Part shown: positions 50,624 to 64,000 of the stretch, in pieces | How the letters are laid out: every line of letters starts with the position of its first letter | Numbering within the stretch: position 1 is the stretch's first letter | Assembly: GCA_937920585.1 (NCBI GenBank) | Contig: CAKZSB010000265.1 | Location: 1 to 64,000, forward strand | Reading direction: 5' to 3' | DNA: 64,000 nt | Origin: an uncultured Granulosicoccaceae bacterium | GTDB lineage: Bacteria > Pseudomonadota > Gammaproteobacteria > Granulosicoccales > Granulosicoccaceae | Translations under genes and position numbers: made by a program | The notes under the pieces: model-generated | The model's database searches: none | The model's input: only the letters and a program-made list of their open reading frames with translations | Told to the model about the DNA's origin: nothing

Positions 50624-51712
50624 TTGCAGCCACACACCGAAGATTTTGCCAGTTTATTCCGCACCGAGATTCCATTAATGGATGTGCGAGCACCCGTTGA
50701 GTTCGCGCGTGGCAGTATTCCCGGAGCGGTAAATGTTCCGTTGCTTGATGATTCACAACGCGCAGAAATCGGAACCGAATACGCCGAGCACGGCCAGGAT
50801 GCCGCAGTGAAACTCGGTTTGGCTGCGGCAACGCAATCTATCAGGCAACAAAGAATTGCGGCGTGGAGCGCATTTGCCAAAGAAAATCCAAACGGCCTTT
50901 TATACTGTTTCAGGGGCGGATTACGCTCGCGAATAACTAGCGACTGGCTATCAGAAAACGGTATCGATATGCCCTACGTCACTGGCGGTTACAAAGCCAT
51001 GCGACGTTGGCTCATCGAGCAGCTCGAACAACTTTGCTCCGATGGCAGAATGTTGGTCGTGTCCTCTACCACGGGATCGGGAAAAACGGATCTATTGTGC
51101 AAGTGGCAACGCAGTGTCGATCTGGAAGGTATCGCAAGGCACCGGGGCAGCGCCTTTGGTGGCACCTTTACCGCACAGCCAAGCCAGGCGAGTTGGGAGA
51201 ACGCTGTTGCCGCCTGTTGGTATCGCTTGTCACAACAATCTGAACAACCCGTGCTATTTGAAGCAGAGTCACATTTAATAGGACGAATATCATTGCCCGC
51301 CTGTTTACAGCAGGCATTGGGCAAAGCACCGTTACTCGCACTTGAAACGCCCTACGAAGAGCGGGTAGAAAGAATACGAAAAGACTATATCCATTTCGCG
51401 TTACAACATTTTGAAGCAACCGATCCGCAGCATGCGATGCAACGCCTGCACGACTACGCGGCAGGTAATCTTGCACGTATTCAAAGGCGTTTAGGCGGTG
51501 AGCGTTACAAGCGAATGATGACCTTGTTGCCCACTGCACTGGAAGAGGTATCAGCTGAAGGCGAAAGCCCTTCTCTCGATGCCATGATCGAAATCATGTT
51601 GATTGACTACTACGACCCCTTATACAACCATAAAATAGAGGCCAGAAAAAACCGTATCGCTGTAACCGGAAATGAAACCGAGTTGCTTGAGTGGCTTGGA
51701 AAAAACAGCTAG
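50624..51712 (+). CDS. mnmH: tRNA 2-selenouridine synthase
   Basis: MnmH (SelU, YbbB) geranylates and then selenates 2-thiouridine at the wobble base of tRNAs for Lys, Glu and Gln, using selenophosphate. The 362-residue protein has an N-terminal rhodanese domain (LMDVRAPVEFARGSIPGAVN) with catalytic Cys95 in LLYCFRGGLRSR and a C-terminal P-loop domain with VVSSTTGSGKTDLLCK. The length matches E. coli (364). The TTG at 50624 is the only sensible start. The SelD fusion follows immediately, with ATG directly after the stop, making a selenium operon. Confidence 0.94.
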   Translation: MQPHTEDFASLFRTEIPLMDVRAPVEFARGSIPGAVNVPLLDDSQRAEIGTEYAEHGQDAAVKLGLAAATQSIRQQRIAAWSAFAKENPNGLLYCFRGGLRSRITSDWLSENGIDMPYVTGGYKAMRRWLIEQLEQLCSDGRMLVVSSTTGSGKTDLLCKWQRSVDLEGIARHRGSAFGGTFTAQPSQASWENAVAACWYRLSQQSEQPVLFEAESHLIGRISLPACLQQALGKAPLLALETPYEERVERIRKDYIHFALQHFEATDPQHAMQRLHDYAAGNLARIQRRLGGERYKRMMTLLPTALEEVSAEGESPSLDAMIEIMLIDYYDPLYNHKIEARKNRIAVTGNETELLEWLGKNS

Positions 51713-53863
51713 ATGCACGAGCGAGAACTGGTTCTTGTGGGCGGCGGGCATGCCCACGCACTGATTATTCGCATGTTGGCGATGAAGCCCATACCGGGTG
51801 TTCGGGTCACGCTGATCTCCGAACAAACGCTGACACCCTATTCCGGAATGTTGCCAGGTTTTGTCGCCGGGCACTATAGCGTCAACGATACCCACATAGA
51901 TTTGAACCGCCTCTGTCAATGGGCAGGTGTCAGGTGGATCAGAGCGCGGGCAACCGGAATCGATCCCGACTCAAAAAATATTCGGCTTCAGGGACGGCGC
52001 GACTTTGCCTACGACAAAGTGTCGATTGACACTGGCTCCACCCCTGACTTATCCGTCCCGGGTGCGCGCGAGTATGCTGTAGGGGTAAAACCCGTCAGTG
52101 GATTTACCACTTTACTGGCGAAACTACTGCACGCCAGCGAGCACAATGAAAATGCGCACTGGGGTGTTATCGGCGCCGGGGCAGGTGGCGTTGAGCTGGT
52201 TTTAGCACTGGCTTACCGGTTGCGGCACAAAGAGAATCTAAAGTTTCACCTGATTTTTCCGGGTGTAGATATGCTGCGTGGATACCCGGCACGCCTGCAA
52301 CGCGAAGTCGAGGCGGCGATGCAGCGCCACGGTGTGACGATGCACGCCAATTTTCGTGTCAGCAGGGTGCACGAGAATGGTGTCGAGGCGAACGATGGTC
52401 AGCGAATCGAGCTTGCGCAGAGTATCTGGTGTACCGGGGCCGCCGCACCGAAATGGCTGGCAGATAGTTCGCTCGCATTGAGTGAAAATGGTTTTATTTC
52501 GGTCAGCCAGAGTTTGCAAAGTAATAGCCACGCTGATGTATTTGCGGCTGGCGATGTTGCTGAAATGATCGACGATCCTCGTCCCAAGGCGGGCGTTTAT
52601 GCCGTCAGGCAAGCGCCATTCCTAATGAAGAATTTGCATCGTGCATTCGCGCAAAAGACGCTGGTCAAAGTGAATCTGCAAACCGATTTTCTGTCACTCG
52701 TATCGCTTGGTGATAAACGTGCGGTGGGTTGCCGTTTTGGATTTAGTGCCGAGGGTCAATCGATTTGGCGCCTTAAAGATTATATCGATCGAAAGTTTAT
52801 GGATCGACTGAACGATCCCGGGCCGCGCCCTGATATGCAGGCAACCGAAGAGATGCCGATGCACTGCGCTGGTTGTGGCAGTAAACTGGGGCCCGAGCTG
52901 GTGGCAGACAGTCTGGCGCAAATTCCGATTTATCACAGTGAGCACGTAGTACCTGCACTTGGGGCTGCCGAAGACGCTGCGCTGATGAAAATGCCTGCTG
53001 GCAAAATCGCTGTGCAGAGCATCGATGGTTTTCGCACATTCACCGGTGACCTGGAAAATTTTGGCGAAATCTGCGTGTACCACGCATTGAGCGATATCTA
53101 TGCGATGGGCGCCACAGCAGTGTCCGTGCAGGTCTGGATCAATATTGCCTACAACCATCCCCGGCTTATAAAACGCGACTATTTACGTTTGATGGGTGGC
53201 GTCGCGACGGCATTGCAACGTGAGCAGGTAGCGCTTGCCGGTGGGCACAGTACAGAAGGTATGGAAACTCATGTTGGCGTAGTGGTTACAGGGTATGCCG
53301 ACGAACAACGGGTGTGGCGCAAAAACACACCTGACACAGGTGATTTACTGTTGCTGAGTAAGCCACTGGGTACCGGAGTGATTTTGGCAGCAGACATGCA
53401 GTTGGCCGCCCCCGCCACTGCAGTGGAATCGGCTTTTGCAACCATGATGCAGTCCAATCGGTCGGTTGCCGATACCCTTTTGCAGTTAAAACCCTCTGCC
53501 GTTACGGATGTCACCGGGTTTGGATTAATCGGGCATTTGCTCGAAATGTTAACCGATACCGGTAAGGGCGCTCGTGTGCAAATGAACAAAGTGCCGGCAA
53601 TTGAAGGTGCGATATCCCTGCTCGCCGATGGCCATCGTTCGACGCTGCATCCGCAACTCTTCGCGAATCTTATGCATTGTAGAGTGGATGACGGCATTGC
53701 CGACGCGGAACGGGATCTGTTGTTTGATCCACAAACCAGTGGTGGTTTATTGATTGCAATCAATCCCGAGCAATACGATGCATTGATCGCGAAGCAGCCA
53801 CAGATGGTGGCAATCGGGTTCATTACGGACAATGCCGATGATCTGCATTTAGCCAATGAGTAA
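51713..53863 (+). CDS. selD: FAD-dependent oxidoreductase fused to selenide, water dikinase (SelD)
   Basis: SelD makes selenophosphate from selenide and ATP. The 716-residue protein has two parts. Residues about 1-370 are a pyridine nucleotide-disulfide oxidoreductase-like domain (LVLVGGGHAHALIIRML for FAD, WGVIGAGAGGVELVLALAYRL for NAD, DVFAAGDVAEM). Residues about 380-716 are SelD, with the nucleophile Cys388 and Lys391 in HCAGCGSKLG, AEDAALMKM, VQSIDGF, YHALSDIYAMGA, GGHSTEGMET and DPQTSGGLL. E. coli SelD (347) lacks the first domain. Similar fusions are known, for example in cyanobacteria. The extra domain may reduce a selenium source, which is inference. Confidence 0.93.
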   Translation: MHERELVLVGGGHAHALIIRMLAMKPIPGVRVTLISEQTLTPYSGMLPGFVAGHYSVNDTHIDLNRLCQWAGVRWIRARATGIDPDSKNIRLQGRRDFAYDKVSIDTGSTPDLSVPGAREYAVGVKPVSGFTTLLAKLLHASEHNENAHWGVIGAGAGGVELVLALAYRLRHKENLKFHLIFPGVDMLRGYPARLQREVEAAMQRHGVTMHANFRVSRVHENGVEANDGQRIELAQSIWCTGAAAPKWLADSSLALSENGFISVSQSLQSNSHADVFAAGDVAEMIDDPRPKAGVYAVRQAPFLMKNLHRAFAQKTLVKVNLQTDFLSLVSLGDKRAVGCRFGFSAEGQSIWRLKDYIDRKFMDRLNDPGPRPDMQATEEMPMHCAGCGSKLGPELVADSLAQIPIYHSEHVVPALGAAEDAALMKMPAGKIAVQSIDGFRTFTGDLENFGEICVYHALSDIYAMGATAVSVQVWINIAYNHPRLIKRDYLRLMGGVATALQREQVALAGGHSTEGMETHVGVVVTGYADEQRVWRKNTPDTGDLLLLSKPLGTGVILAADMQLAAPATAVESAFATMMQSNRSVADTLLQLKPSAVTDVTGFGLIGHLLEMLTDTGKGARVQMNKVPAIEGAISLLADGHRSTLHPQLFANLMHCRVDDGIADAERDLLFDPQTSGGLLIAINPEQYDALIAKQPQMVAIGFITDNADDLHLANE

Positions 53864-53908: not shown

Positions 53909-54667
53909 GTGAACGGGCACGAGGAAAATCCGGATCAGTACCCCTTGTTGCGGCAGGCGGGTGACGCTGCCATATTGGTTGAATTTGGCGCCGTGCTCGA
54001 CCTTGCCGTCAACGCTGCCGCGCAGGCCTTCGACGCCCGCTTGCGCGAGGTATCTATCGGTGGTGTTCTGGAAACAACACCCACCTTGCGTTCGGTGCTG
54101 GTGCGTTATGATCCGCTGAATAAGGATTGTGAAACGCTCCATCGTGAACTTCAAAGCCATTTGCAAGAACGCAACTGGTTACAGGCCGAACCCGGTGGCG
54201 GGCGTCGCAAGTGGTTGGTGCCGGTCGCCTATGGTGATGACTATGGCCCCGATATAGAAGATGTGGCGCGACTGCTGAAAAGCGATGTAGATGAAGTCAT
54301 TCGCGTGCACTGTGCATTGAGCTTGCGTGTGTTGACGCTGGGCTTTGCGCCGGGCTTTACCTATTTGGGTCTGATGCCCGAGCGCTGGGATTTACCGCGA
54401 TTGAATTACGTGAAGCCAGAGGTACCCGCCGGAGCAATCTCTGTTGCGGTTCGTCAAACAGTTATGACATCGACACCCATCCCCACAGGCTGGCGCACCA
54501 TTGGCCAAACACCTTTTAGTAACTTCAACCTGAAGATCGATCCGCCATTTGTGATTGGCAGCGGCGATGAGATCGGCTTCAGAGCGATCGACAGAGAGGA
54601 ATACGAATACCTTGCTCAACGCGTCGCCGCCGGCGAGGCAATACTGCAACCGGCAGAGGCAAAATGA
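53909..54667 (+). CDS. pxpB: 5-oxoprolinase subunit B (KipI homologue)
   Basis: PxpB with PxpC and PxpA forms the ATP-dependent 5-oxoprolinase that opens 5-oxoproline to glutamate. The 252-residue protein has the domain start LRQAGDAAILVEFG, the strongly conserved LSLRVLTLGFAPGFTYLGLM, and GAISVAVRQTVMTS with PTGWRTIGQTPF. It is somewhat longer than E. coli PxpB (218) at the N-terminus. The start is GTG. It overlaps pxpC by four bases. Confidence 0.93.
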   Translation: MNGHEENPDQYPLLRQAGDAAILVEFGAVLDLAVNAAAQAFDARLREVSIGGVLETTPTLRSVLVRYDPLNKDCETLHRELQSHLQERNWLQAEPGGGRRKWLVPVAYGDDYGPDIEDVARLLKSDVDEVIRVHCALSLRVLTLGFAPGFTYLGLMPERWDLPRLNYVKPEVPAGAISVAVRQTVMTSTPIPTGWRTIGQTPFSNFNLKIDPPFVIGSGDEIGFRAIDREEYEYLAQRVAAGEAILQPAEAK

Positions 54668-55716
54668 GTACGGTAGTCGAGGTACTTTCGATCGCGGGCA
54701 GTGTTTCAATTCAGGATCATGGTCGGGCAGGGTATCAGCGTTATGGTGTGGCAGAAGGTGGAGCGATGGATCGCTTTGCTTTGCATCAGGGCGCAACACT
54801 TTTGAACAATTCAACCGATGCCGCTGTGCTGGAAATGGCCGGCGCCGGAGCCCGGCTGGAAATCTCGGGTGAGAAAACGGCGTTTGCCTGCACCGGTGCG
54901 CCGATGTCGCTGCAGATTAATGGCCAGACTCTGCGCTGGAACAGCAGCTTTGTTGCAGCGCCTGGTGATATTGTCGAAATTGGTTCGGCCTCGCAGGGTG
55001 TCTATGGATATTTGCATATAGCCGGTGGATTCGAGGTGCCTGCTATTTTGGGCTCGCGTGCCACCCACAGTCGTGCAGGCTTTGGCGGGCATGAAGGGCG
55101 TGTGTTAATCGCTGGAGACAAGCTTGCTGCGGCCGGCTCGGGAATCGATATTCAGATGCGCGGGCTGCCACCGGAAGATTATTTCAATAGTGAATTGATC
55201 CGGATCGTCTGGGGGGCTCAGGCGCATCTTTTCGATCAAAACATTCGCAGTCGATTTCTGGACACCACATTTACCATGACGATGAGGCGTGATCGAATGG
55301 GCGCGAGGTTGAGCGCCGACGACGAGACTTTTCTGCCGGCCAGCGGGCTGACTGGCATTTCCGATGCGGTACTGGCAGGCGACATACAAATTGCCGGCGA
55401 TGGCGCTGCTACGGTACTGTTAGCTGACCGGCAGCCCACCGGCGGCTATCCACGAATCGCGACGGTGATTTCAGCTGATCTTGGGGCAGTTGCGCAAATG
55501 CGTAGCGGCAGGCAGTTCAAATTTGGCTTACTCGGTGTAAGCGAGGCAGTCGACGTATTGCGAGCTCAGGATCGCAGGGTTCGCCAGTTGTCGTCACTGC
55601 TGCAGCCGCTGGTTCGCGATCCGAGCGAAATAACCGATCTGCTCGAATACAACCTGATCGATGGTTTTACCACAGGCGAAGAGCCCGTACCCATACAACC
55701 GAGCGCAAAAAAATGA
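54664..55716 (+). CDS. pxpC: 5-oxoprolinase subunit C (KipA homologue)
   Basis: PxpC is the carboxyltransferase-like partner of PxpB. The 350-residue protein has SIQDHGRAGYQRYGVAEGGA at the start, ALHQGATLLNN, GYLHIAGGFEVPAILGSRAT, DRMGARLSADD and VLLADRQPTGGYPRIATVIS, all typical of the biotin-dependent carboxylase-like domain. The arrangement B-C-A with ATGA overlaps on both sides indicates one operon. Confidence 0.94.
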   Translation: MSTVVEVLSIAGSVSIQDHGRAGYQRYGVAEGGAMDRFALHQGATLLNNSTDAAVLEMAGAGARLEISGEKTAFACTGAPMSLQINGQTLRWNSSFVAAPGDIVEIGSASQGVYGYLHIAGGFEVPAILGSRATHSRAGFGGHEGRVLIAGDKLAAAGSGIDIQMRGLPPEDYFNSELIRIVWGAQAHLFDQNIRSRFLDTTFTMTMRRDRMGARLSADDETFLPASGLTGISDAVLAGDIQIAGDGAATVLLADRQPTGGYPRIATVISADLGAVAQMRSGRQFKFGLLGVSEAVDVLRAQDRRVRQLSSLLQPLVRDPSEITDLLEYNLIDGFTTGEEPVPIQPSAKK

Positions 55717-56480
55717 CCGATACGCTGGATTTGAATGCCGATCTGGGTGAGTCGTTCGGGCCCTGGAAGATGGGTGCTGATGAGGCGATGCTCGATATCG
55801 TAACCAGTGCCAATATCGCCTGCGGGTTTCACGCCGGTGATCCGGTCGTAATGACTAAAACCGTTCAGATGTGTCTGGATAAAGGGGTCAATATTGGCGC
55901 GCATCCCGGTTTTCACGATCTGCAGGGCTTTGGCCGTCGTCGCGTCGTGAACCTCGATCTACTCGAATTGCGTGCGTCAATTCTGTACCAGATTGGCGCA
56001 TTGCAAGCGATCGCCGGATCACTTAACGGGTCGGTTACGCATGTCAAAATGCATGGTGCGCTAGGTAATATGGCCAGTGAAGAGGCGCCTGTGGCGCAGG
56101 CGTGCATCGCCGCTATCGCCGACCTGGACGCCAAAGCAGGTATTGTTGCGATGGCGGCTACCCATCTGCAATTCGAGGCTGAAAAGACAGGTGCTCCGGT
56201 AATCAGGGAAATCTACGCAGATCGCGCTTACAACGACGATGGAACACTGGCCGCCCGGGGTCAGCCCGGTTCGGTGATTCACGATCCGGAACTCGCCGCC
56301 AATCGAGTTTTGCAAATGCTCGAAGATCAGGCCGTCGTTTCAGTCAATGGTGTCAGTGTTGCGGTTCAACCCGAGACGGTTTGCGTCCACGGTGATTCAC
56401 CCGGTGCGGTGCAGATGGCTGAACATCTGCGTGTCCGGCTGGAGCAGGCTGGCGTGCGTGTGACGGGCTATCGACACTGA
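55713..56480 (+). CDS. pxpA: 5-oxoprolinase subunit A (LamB/YcsF family)
   Basis: PxpA completes the 5-oxoprolinase. The 255-residue protein has LDLNADLGESFGPWKMGADE, SANIACGFHAGDPVVMTKTV, GAHPGFHDLQGFGRR, VTHVKMHGALGNMA and VCVHGDSPGAVQMAEHLR, the full LamB/YcsF signature. It is joined to pxpC by a four-base overlap. The pathway recycles 5-oxoproline formed by spontaneous glutamine cyclisation. A small minus-strand gene converges on it with a 20-base gap. Confidence 0.96.
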   Translation: MTDTLDLNADLGESFGPWKMGADEAMLDIVTSANIACGFHAGDPVVMTKTVQMCLDKGVNIGAHPGFHDLQGFGRRRVVNLDLLELRASILYQIGALQAIAGSLNGSVTHVKMHGALGNMASEEAPVAQACIAAIADLDAKAGIVAMAATHLQFEAEKTGAPVIREIYADRAYNDDGTLAARGQPGSVIHDPELAANRVLQMLEDQAVVSVNGVSVAVQPETVCVHGDSPGAVQMAEHLRVRLEQAGVRVTGYRH

Positions 56481-60904: not shown

Positions 60905-63900
60905 ATGAGACTATTGTATTCAGTACTTGTGTGTCTGTTGCTTGTGGGATGTAATAGTGGATCACGAAACAGCAATGCGCCGGTAACCGGAACCGCCTTC
61001 GCGCCAATACCGGTCGAGGCACGTCGTATAGCGATAGTCCATTCCGCCACCAGTGCGGCAAGGTTCTACGACGAATTCATCTTCAATCAAACCTTTGCCG
61101 CGATGCAGCAACTGGCGCGGCAAGCGGGTCTGCCCTACGATCTTTTGAGTGAGTCGGACCTGACCGACGCGAGCAGACTTGCCAGCTACGATGCGATTGT
61201 CCTGCCTAACGTCAGCAACGCGCCGGCGTCAATCCGTGATTCGATGATCGCAGCGCTGGTCAGTGCGCAGCAAGCAGGCACCGGAATTATCTCCTCTGGA
61301 GATTTGCTGGCTGTTGATGAGCAAGGCCAGTCTTTTGATGACTGGGATACAGCGGCACGTCAGCTTTTAGGATTGGCGCCTTCCTCATATATTGAGGGTG
61401 AGGCGACGGTCGTGAGCATCAGCAACGCCGATCACCCCGTCACCAGTGGTTACGCCGTCAATGAACAAATTGCGGACTACGCGCGCGCCTGGTATGCAGA
61501 CTACCAGCCCGTTGACGGGACAATCCCTGTTGTACTGGCAACTGCAACGAGCGATGGTCAGTCATACAATGCCGTAGTGGCAACGAATAACACGGGCCGT
61601 GCCGTCCACTTTGCCAATGAAGAATTGCTTGGCGACAATCTCCTGTGGCCGGCACTGCAGTGGGTTGTGTACGGAGATAGAGCGCCGGTCGCGTTGCAGT
61701 TGTCACGTTCCGACAGTATCGCACTAGCGCGAAACGATATGGATCAAACCATGTACCCGGCCTTGCTGGATACCACTCACGTACCACTGCTGGACATACT
61801 GCGAGACTGGAAGCGTGATTTCAATTTCACGGGATCGCACTATATTGACATCGGCAATGATCCTGCCAACGGTTTGTATACCGACTGGAGTGTCTCCGCG
61901 CCATTGATGCAGCAGTACATTGATCTGGGTATAGAGATCGGAACACACTCCTGGACGCACCCGTATTTTACTGCGCAATTGACTGATACCCAGCTGGAAT
62001 TCGAATTCAATCAGGCGAAAAATGAAATAAGCACACAGTTGAATTATCCGGTTACCGGTGGCGCTATACCGGGAAATACCGAAAGCCTTCGCGTAGTCGA
62101 AAATCTCAATCAGTGGTTTGAATATTTCTCTGGAAAAGCCAATCCGTTCGGGCTAACCCAGCCCGCTGCAGTCGGCAAGCTAAGGCCGGACCACAACCTG
62201 ATCTATTTCAGTTTGAATACATCGCCAGACTTCACGCTTGCCGATTTCCTGAACTATCCACCGGATGTTGCCGAGCAGGTTTGGCGGGATGAGATCGATG
62301 CTATTTTGTCACCGCATGCGCGGCAACCGCTGATCCACTGGCTGTGGCACGACTACGCGCCTACAACGGAAATCGCCAATGGAACCTACACCCGTGAGAT
62401 GTTTGATAACACCGTCGCCTACATGCATCAGCGCGGTGCAGAATTCGCCACGCTCGACGACATGCAAAAACGAATTCGTAATTTTGCAACAGCTGAATTG
62501 ACAGTAGGCGCATCAGCAACCGTTGAGGCAAATATTGCAGGCACAGGCCTTGGCCAGTTCTCGTTGCAAATGGCGGACGGACATTCAATCAAAAATGTAG
62601 CGAACTGGTACGCCTACAGCGATGATAAAGTCTTTTTGCCCGAGAACGGCGGGCAATTCAGTATTGTCAGTGGCGCGAATCCCGATGCGGTTACACGCAT
62701 CAGCAGCCTGCCAATGCGTGCGAAATTACTTGGCCTGAACGGTGACGGGGCGACACTGACATTCGAATTCTCAGGTTCCGGGGAAGTCACCGTAACGCTC
62801 AACCCGCAGCTGGTTGGTAACTACGTCGTCAGTGGTGCCGATTCAATTATTGAAAATGAAGATACGCTGGTGCTCGCGTTCAACAATGAAGCAACCCACA
62901 GCGTTTCTATCGATTACAACACCGCGCCAAATGTCGAGCCGGTAGCGGTGAACCAGTCGGTCACAACCGGTGCCGGGCAGTCGATTGATATCACACTGGT
63001 AGCGACAGACGCTGATAATGAGTCACTTGAGTACAGTATCATCACGCAGCCGTCGAACGGGGTACTGAACGGTACTGCACCGAACGTGTTGTATACGCCA
63101 AATTCAGATTACACGGGTATGGATACGTTCAGCTTCGCTGCCAGTGATGGTGTCGCACAGAGTAATGTCGCCACGGTTGCTGTTGAAGTTACTGCCACAC
63201 CGATCCCGAACCTCCCTCCGGTGGCCAACAGTCTTGCTGTGCAAACACTTATCGATACCCCGGTTGAGTTGATGCTGGGGGGGAGTGACAATGAGGGGCG
63301 GTCGCTAAGCTATAACCTGCTAACGCCACCGGCCAATGGAACATTGAATGGTGTTGCTCCTGCGTTTGGCTATACTCCGGCGACCGGATACACCGGCGTC
63401 GATCAGTTTACGTTTTTGGTAAGTGATGGCACGAATGACAGCGAGCCTGCAACGGTTACGGTCAATGTTGTCGCGCAACTGCCACCAGTCAACGGTACGC
63501 GATCGAATCAGCTGGGCAATGACAGTGTCACTCTGGATGGTTCCCTGGCAGAGTGGAATGCAGTGACGTCCTTCGGTGTCGATGCCGATGATGCCAACAA
63601 CACCAATGATGCGATCGACTGGCAGGAAGCCTGGGTCGCCCATGACAACGACTATCTCTACATCGCCTATCAAACCTACGAGGCCACTAGTCTGACCTGG
63701 GGTCATGGTGTGTATCTGGATACAGACACCAGCAGCTTAACCGGGTTTCGTGGATTTGGTTCCGAACTGTCGATCGGTGCCGACTTTCTGCTCGAGGGAC
63801 AATCGCTCTTCAGGTACGGGCCGGACGCTGATGGCACAAGTTGGAGCTGGGAGTTCGTGGCGTCGGTGGATGCGGGCAACTCAGGCAATACAAGCGAGTT

Positions 63901-64000
63901 CGCCATTGCACTGGCAGACCTTGGGGATCCCGTCAATCTCAGGCTGGTGTTGCGTGGCAATAGTGCAGCAACCGGTGGCAGCACGCTCGATAACTTCCCC
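60905..64000 (+). CDS. Large surface lipoprotein with deacetylase-like and Ig-like domains (3' end outside window)
   Basis: The frame runs from the ATG at 60905 without a stop to the window edge, 1032 codons. A lipoprotein signal ends at Cys16 (LLLVGC). Residues about 25-260 look Rossmann- or amidotransferase-like (YDAIVLPNVSNAP). Residues about 275-500 resemble a polysaccharide deacetylase, with D315, D319 and the zinc pair H348/H352 in EIGTHSWTHPYF. Two cadherin/tandem-95-like repeats (about 675-766 and 768-858) each contain YTP-type strands and DTFSF- or DQFTF-like ends. Residues 860 onward resemble a CBM9-type sugar-binding domain (TLDGSLAEW, DNDYLYIAYQTY). An outer-membrane enzyme acting on polysaccharide is likely; the C-terminus is unseen. 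Confidence 0.85.
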   Translation, partial: MRLLYSVLVCLLLVGCNSGSRNSNAPVTGTAFAPIPVEARRIAIVHSATSAARFYDEFIFNQTFAAMQQLARQAGLPYDLLSESDLTDASRLASYDAIVLPNVSNAPASIRDSMIAALVSAQQAGTGIISSGDLLAVDEQGQSFDDWDTAARQLLGLAPSSYIEGEATVVSISNADHPVTSGYAVNEQIADYARAWYADYQPVDGTIPVVLATATSDGQSYNAVVATNNTGRAVHFANEELLGDNLLWPALQWVVYGDRAPVALQLSRSDSIALARNDMDQTMYPALLDTTHVPLLDILRDWKRDFNFTGSHYIDIGNDPANGLYTDWSVSAPLMQQYIDLGIEIGTHSWTHPYFTAQLTDTQLEFEFNQAKNEISTQLNYPVTGGAIPGNTESLRVVENLNQWFEYFSGKANPFGLTQPAAVGKLRPDHNLIYFSLNTSPDFTLADFLNYPPDVAEQVWRDEIDAILSPHARQPLIHWLWHDYAPTTEIANGTYTREMFDNTVAYMHQRGAEFATLDDMQKRIRNFATAELTVGASATVEANIAGTGLGQFSLQMADGHSIKNVANWYAYSDDKVFLPENGGQFSIVSGANPDAVTRISSLPMRAKLLGLNGDGATLTFEFSGSGEVTVTLNPQLVGNYVVSGADSIIENEDTLVLAFNNEATHSVSIDYNTAPNVEPVAVNQSVTTGAGQSIDITLVATDADNESLEYSIITQPSNGVLNGTAPNVLYTPNSDYTGMDTFSFAASDGVAQSNVATVAVEVTATPIPNLPPVANSLAVQTLIDTPVELMLGGSDNEGRSLSYNLLTPPANGTLNGVAPAFGYTPATGYTGVDQFTFLVSDGTNDSEPATVTVNVVAQLPPVNGTRSNQLGNDSVTLDGSLAEWNAVTSFGVDADDANNTNDAIDWQEAWVAHDNDYLYIAYQTYEATSLTWGHGVYLDTDTSSLTGFRGFGSELSIGADFLLEGQSLFRYGPDADGTSWSWEFVASVDAGNSGNTSEFAIALADLGDPVNLRLVLRGNSAATGGSTLDNFP

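Follow-up and report, generated by a model that had tools for sequence, protein, structure and literature searches.

An open reading frame at the end of a contig

The stretch of DNA analysed here (the window) covers bases 1 to 64000 of a contig of 64603 bases, which belongs to a 5.34 Mb genome from a member of the Granulosicoccaceae. At its right-hand end a single open frame starts with an ATG at position 60905 on the forward strand and runs up to the window end at 64000, i.e. over its first 1032 codons, and an earlier note on this DNA, made from the letters alone, was right to describe it as one long frame of at least 1032 residues. That note had pointed to the sequence right of the window for the end of the gene; the contig continues there for 603 more bases, up to its end at 64603, without closing the frame, giving a protein of at least 1233 aa. 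Judging from its relatives in 11 of the 35 other Granulosicoccaceae genomes (48-52% identity, with two copies in one genome), the frame is a real conserved gene. Since these relatives are mostly 1566-1663 aa long, the window protein is probably without its last ~400 residues, owing to the cut at the contig end. The missing 3' end was sought on the other contigs of the same genome and was not found there. The neighbours of the gene within the window (MFS, UppP and protease genes) are not common to the loci of its relatives. Elsewhere in the window, sequence reading gave a frame resembling tRNA 2-selenouridine synthase (50624-51712), directly before a 716-aa frame resembling an FAD-dependent oxidoreductase fused to selenophosphate synthetase (51713-53863), as well as three consecutive frames resembling the 5-oxoprolinase subunits PxpB, PxpC and PxpA (53909-56480).

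The encoded protein begins with a signal peptide carrying a lipobox (LVG-C16; 60905-60955, as all following features on the forward strand), in which residue +2 is Asn and not Asp. Lipoboxes are also present in most family members and in a distant member from another genome (G267), and the lipoprotein assignment of the earlier note thereby stands. The lipobox leads straight into an N-terminal alpha/beta domain (aa 41-261; 61025-61687), with a GH114 match being absent from the window protein in the Pfam search. This domain had been called Rossmann-like, which holds in so far as it is alpha/beta (AF2) and ThuA-like, while its score with the Pfam ThuA model (27.1 bits) stays below the cut-off of 33.4. 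It is followed by a carbohydrate esterase (CE) domain of the NodB type (aa 262-535; 61688-62509), recognised by hhalign to PelA and by Pfam Polysacc_deac_1 at 24.7 bits, above the cut-off of 23.1, in agreement with the deacetylase-like domain described before. A beta-rich domain (aa 536-656; 62510-62872), delimited by AF2 strands and hhalign to PelA, completes the core.

Downstream of the core lie two repeats (aa 676-760, 62930-63184, and aa about 771-857, 63215-63475), over which a Pfam Big_9 match of 84.1 bits is spread in two stretches. The number of repeats thus agrees with the earlier description as tandem-95-like, with the NCBIfam tandem-95 model itself, at 68 bits, falling short of its cut-off of 90. 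From aa 862 to about 1050 (63488-64000, where the window end cuts it) follows a module delimited by its conservation in the family, often present twice in full-length relatives, and after it, beyond the window, two further Big_9-like repeats can be read from the translation. The label 'CBM9-like' previously given to this module could not be upheld, as Pfam gave nothing for it at E values up to 1 and a profile search of the PDB gave no relevant match at useful significance; by eye, it looks like a calcium-dependent binding domain. The same module occurs on another contig of this genome (C11; G000:C11:1-3462, L107), which was considered as the missing 3' end and rejected, because it encodes another protein, whose C-terminal segment is rich in Gly. 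This other surface protein carries three tandem copies of the module, and its C-terminal segment GGGAFGPGWLMLAPLVAWLRRRGR looks like a GlyGly-CTERM sorting signal.

Active-site motifs and the relation to PelA

Four motifs of the CE domain could be matched with PelA, the Pel deacetylase. Motif 1, R276-N-D278-M-D280 (61730-61744), corresponds to H526-x-D528-x-D530 of PelA. Motif 2, H348-SWT-H352 (61946-61960), aligns to PelA HTFSHP and contains the predicted metal ligands, equivalent to H600 and H604, for which the residue numbers given earlier were correct. Motif 3, G385-x-A-x-P-G390 (62057-62074), matches GDALPG, and motif 5, W481-H482-D483-Y484 (62345-62356), likely provides the catalytic acid in the place of PelA H761, based on its context relative to YYHFY. 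Among 22 aligned relatives, which belong to the Gammaproteobacteria, Alphaproteobacteria and Cyanobacteriota, there is no variation at R276, D278, D280, H348, H352, P389, G390, W481, H482, D483 and Y484. In PelA, D528 is the base, which H526 is proposed to activate, while D530, H600 and H604 bind the metal and H761 is the acid (PMC12022489). H526 stands where other families have an activating Arg (PMC12022489), and it is Arg that is read from the alignment at this position in all 22 relatives, with the DxD part being kept. By analogy, D280, H348 and H352 would hold the metal, D278 would be the base, activated by R276, and H482 would be the acid. That the protein has instead become a non-catalytic surface lectin or adhesin, keeping the fold in order to bind Pel, would fit its large repeat and binding-type modules, and the Rhodobacterales loci, with their dead homologue of PelA (see below), show that such losses happen; however, binding alone would not need the metal and acid-base residues, all of which are kept in 22/22 relatives across two phyla, and we therefore regard such a loss of catalysis as very improbable.

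A profile of the family core aligned by hhalign (aa 78-648) collinearly with residues 349-926 of PelA, represented by 13 PelA proteins. The score of the CE domain against that of PelA was 36.0, compared to a maximum of 25.0 in 100 column shuffles, and that of the C-terminal domain was 26.9 compared to 20.4 (likewise the maximum of 100), whereas the N-terminal domain, at 20.1 versus 21.2 for its best of 100 shuffles, was not significant. With HMMER, the family profile found no PelA or Agd3 match in the PDB, even at E 10, and sequence searches of the PDB reach ordinary NodB deacetylases only. AlphaFold2 (AF2) models, each built on a 5-row alignment, reached a mean pLDDT of 55 for the core (618 aa) and of 41 for the CE domain alone (283 aa), the latter without a meaningful fold match, and the CE domain did not fold in either of them. 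The models are thus no guide to the distorted (beta/alpha)7 barrel of the NodB superfamily; the residues of its Asp-His-His metal site are conserved. Local confidence was higher across most of aa 39-149 (pLDDT 60-89) and in the strands of the beta-rich domain at aa 536-656 (53-85). When the low-confidence core model was compared by Foldseek to 350,542 PDB chains, PelA (9cgy) ranked first (E 6.9e-8, 704 columns), with a low TM-score because the CE domain is unfolded in the model; given the weak model, this rank is taken as supporting evidence only. Together with the collinear alignment and the two parts that exceed 100 shuffles, it indicates that the resemblance to PelA, which had been suspected from the sequence, is real: going by these profile comparisons, the three-domain core is a remote but collinear homologue of PelA (CE21).

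The likeness to PelA of Pseudomonas (PDB 9CGY) concerns the order of the alpha/beta, CE and beta-rich domains as well as the motifs ([H/R]xDxD, HxxxH, GxAxPG and a late catalytic His), with 68 residues between D280 and H348 compared to 70 between D530 and H600. Unlike PelA, the window protein has no N-terminal GH114 hydrolase, has Arg for H526, carries extra repeats and binding-type modules, and is only remotely similar in sequence; moreover, members of its family are lipoproteins or RTX-tailed, and hence probably extracellular.

Membership of CE18, the family of Agd3 from Aspergillus (with CBM87; PDB 6NWZ), has to be considered as well, since Gram-negative bacteria are reported to have members of this family in loci that also encode Pel-like outer membrane components. 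Agd3 has the same three-domain plan and acts extracellularly on an alpha-1,4-GalNAc polymer, as would the window family if its substrate is inferred correctly, and the gene company of Agd3 (epimerase, GH114 and spherulin-4 hydrolase) is that of the Calothrix and Rhodobacterales loci described below; in bacteria, too, Agd3 homologues are accompanied by GH114 and Pel-like parts (PMC7229062). However, Agd3 has adjacent Asp residues (DD) in its motif CM1, more than 120 residues between the metal motifs and a long beta2 insertion (PMC7229062), whereas motif 1 is DxD in all 22 relatives, as in PelA, the gap of 68 residues leaves no long insertion between the metal motifs (the comparison with Agd3 being by description), and no Agd3 chain was found in the PDB with the family profile at E up to 10. 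An assignment to CE18 thus has a low probability. In PelADA of Bacillus cereus (CE26, with CBM114; PDB 9ZAU), a PelA-type deacetylase part is likewise separated from the hydrolase, and an N-terminal alpha/beta domain, a C-terminal beta-sandwich and an Asp near the catalytic His are shared features. Motif 1 of PelADA again consists of adjacent Asp residues (D262, D263; PMC13254593) and not of DxD, and the window family further differs by its extra repeats, by its putative export through a lipid or RTX tail rather than a transmembrane helix, and by the Rhodobacterales loci encoding the hydrolase as a separate gene. With the canonical CE4 NodB deacetylases, the Polysacc_deac_1 match and HxxxH are shared, as opposed to motif 1 (NDMD, not TFDD), motif 3 (in which the RxPY type was not found) and the alpha/beta and beta-rich partner domains. 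Because the motif tests for CE18 and CE26 (both compared by their described motifs) failed and the hydrolase domain of the CE21 PelA is absent, the family is best called, on present sequence comparisons, a PelA-related family of its own beside CE18, CE21 and CE26.

Relatives in Pel-type loci

Beyond the Granulosicoccaceae the gene is uncommon, but Rhodobacterales plasmids and a cyanobacterium, Calothrix brevissima, do have relatives. When 398 Pseudomonadota genomes were screened with the family profile, the window genome alone gave a match, one further distinct full-length match came from 369 genomes of the class, and a scan of viral contigs and a phage collection gave no relatives. In a tree of the core, the Granulosicoccaceae proteins stand apart from a group of Calothrix, Rhodobacterales and G267 proteins. 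No paper on this family or on the Rhodobacterales arrangement was found in the literature searched, which was short on subscription journals.

A relative is carried by 7 of 72,556 plasmids, all of Rhodobacterales, and all seven also encode PelF, which is present on only 35 of the 72,556; in fact, the seven plasmids are the seven best PelF matches. In the annotated Sulfitobacter and Cereibacter loci the order is the relative, (glmS), galE, a GH114 hydrolase, two genes on the opposite strand, a polysaccharide export protein, small proteins, pelF and pelG, while in Paracoccus the record starts within the locus and so divides it. One of the opposite-strand genes encodes a homologue of PelA that lacks the hydrolase domain (25% identity and E 6e-39 for Cereibacter). 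In the homologues of Cereibacter (L044:17971-20292) and Paracoccus (L041:22981-25227) the HxDxD, the HxxxH and the catalytic His are all lost, so that they look, by their motifs, like catalytically dead scaffolds; those of Sulfitobacter have no intact motif either, but are very divergent, which makes the loss of the motifs less certain. As the PelA homologue of the locus is without these motifs, the relative of the window protein is the only intact PelA-type deacetylase that could be recognised by sequence in the Rhodobacterales loci.

In Calothrix brevissima (L020:1981-13019) two tandem RTX-tailed copies share a stretch of 20 kb with galE, a spherulin-4 family hydrolase (Spherulin4, E 3e-54) and PelF; a search of this genome for PelA found none. 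The fungal galactosaminogalactan cluster consists of an epimerase, Agd3, Ega3, Sph3 and a glycosyltransferase, which the Calothrix gene set parallels. RTX C-termini are found in the Rhodobacterales and Calothrix relatives and in that of another genome (G003), as opposed to the lipoboxes in most others, and genes for TolC and an ABC exporter are near the Sulfitobacter relative, which fits export of the RTX-tailed proteins by a type I system. Since the PelA of the locus has an inactive site (Rhodobacterales) or is undetected (Calothrix), the RTX-tailed relatives would probably be the main Pel deacetylase, acting extracellularly. That relatives belong to a Pel cluster whose ordinary periplasmic enzyme no longer has its active site suggests that the deacetylation step has moved outside the cell in these related bacteria.

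The window organism and the proposed function

As the earlier note had remarked, there are no pel genes next to the gene, nor are there any in the rest of the window. The genome does have a complete-looking pel operon on another contig (C464), where a PelA with intact HIDGD, HTFSHP and YYHFY adjoins PelB, PelF and PelG. The lack of adjacency has therefore turned out not to count against the PelA reading. The window protein thus occurs beside PelA and does not replace it, and because of this intact PelA it would add a second deacetylase in the form of a surface lipoprotein. PelF is present in 11 of 12 Granulosicoccaceae genomes with the gene (the sole exception being 77% complete) and in 17 of 24 without, which is not clearly higher, and co-occurrence within the family is uninformative, as most genomes have PelF. 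In a comparison across lineages, a dead or absent PelA goes with a gene inside the pel-type locus, and an intact PelA with a gene at another place in the genome.

The absence of linkage to pel in the Granulosicoccaceae and G267 would also be expected if the enzyme deacetylated another polysaccharide (e.g. chitin, peptidoglycan, or an algal or host glycan) for feeding or attachment, without any role in Pel. The best family match of the catalytic domain is in fact the generic NodB model of Pfam, and Big_9 repeats are also a frequent feature of surface adhesins and enzymes of ordinary kinds. Against such a different substrate stand the collinearity of the core with PelA and the Rhodobacterales and Calothrix relatives, which are found in pel-type loci with galE and alpha-galactosaminidase-type hydrolases, and we consider it unlikely. 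The window protein is, in our estimation, quite probably an extracellular metal-dependent N-deacetylase of a Pel-like alpha-1,4-GalNAc exopolysaccharide, with a core of the PelA/Agd3/PelADA type. Its lipid would tether it to the outer membrane and the Ig-like repeats would hold the enzyme off the surface, such that acetyl groups may be removed from the Pel-like polymer after export, in addition to the action of the intact periplasmic PelA. The remodelling of an exopolysaccharide at or outside the cell surface, already suggested for this protein, gains support from the relatives in pel-type loci. Homology, conserved motifs, gene linkage and the loss of motifs in the PelA homologues are what the sequences show, while activity, substrate, surface exposure and type I export are inferred. 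More broadly, the proteins may form an undescribed carbohydrate esterase family of extracellular Pel-type deacetylases, which in Rhodobacterales replaces a periplasmic PelA that is split into a hydrolase and a dead scaffold, and in Granulosicoccaceae provides a second stage, at the surface, after PelA; for this wider reading the arguments seem evenly balanced.

In Gram-negative bacteria, the deacetylation of Pel, a widespread polymer of biofilms, is understood as a periplasmic step that is coupled to export. If exported PelA-like deacetylases do act beside a dead PelA homologue, this step can move outside the cell, and it becomes testable whether Pel has to be deacetylated in order to be made and exported, or whether only the finished matrix needs this for its properties; such proteins would also offer an enzyme for altering Pel from outside.

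As for hydrolases, a separate GH114 gene with a lipoprotein-like product lies on a further contig of the window genome (C392). In several family genomes PelA is accompanied by 3-4 GH114 genes, and one relative's genome (G013; L084:3787-6656) has three GH114 genes in tandem, at least two of them with lipoprotein-like N-termini.
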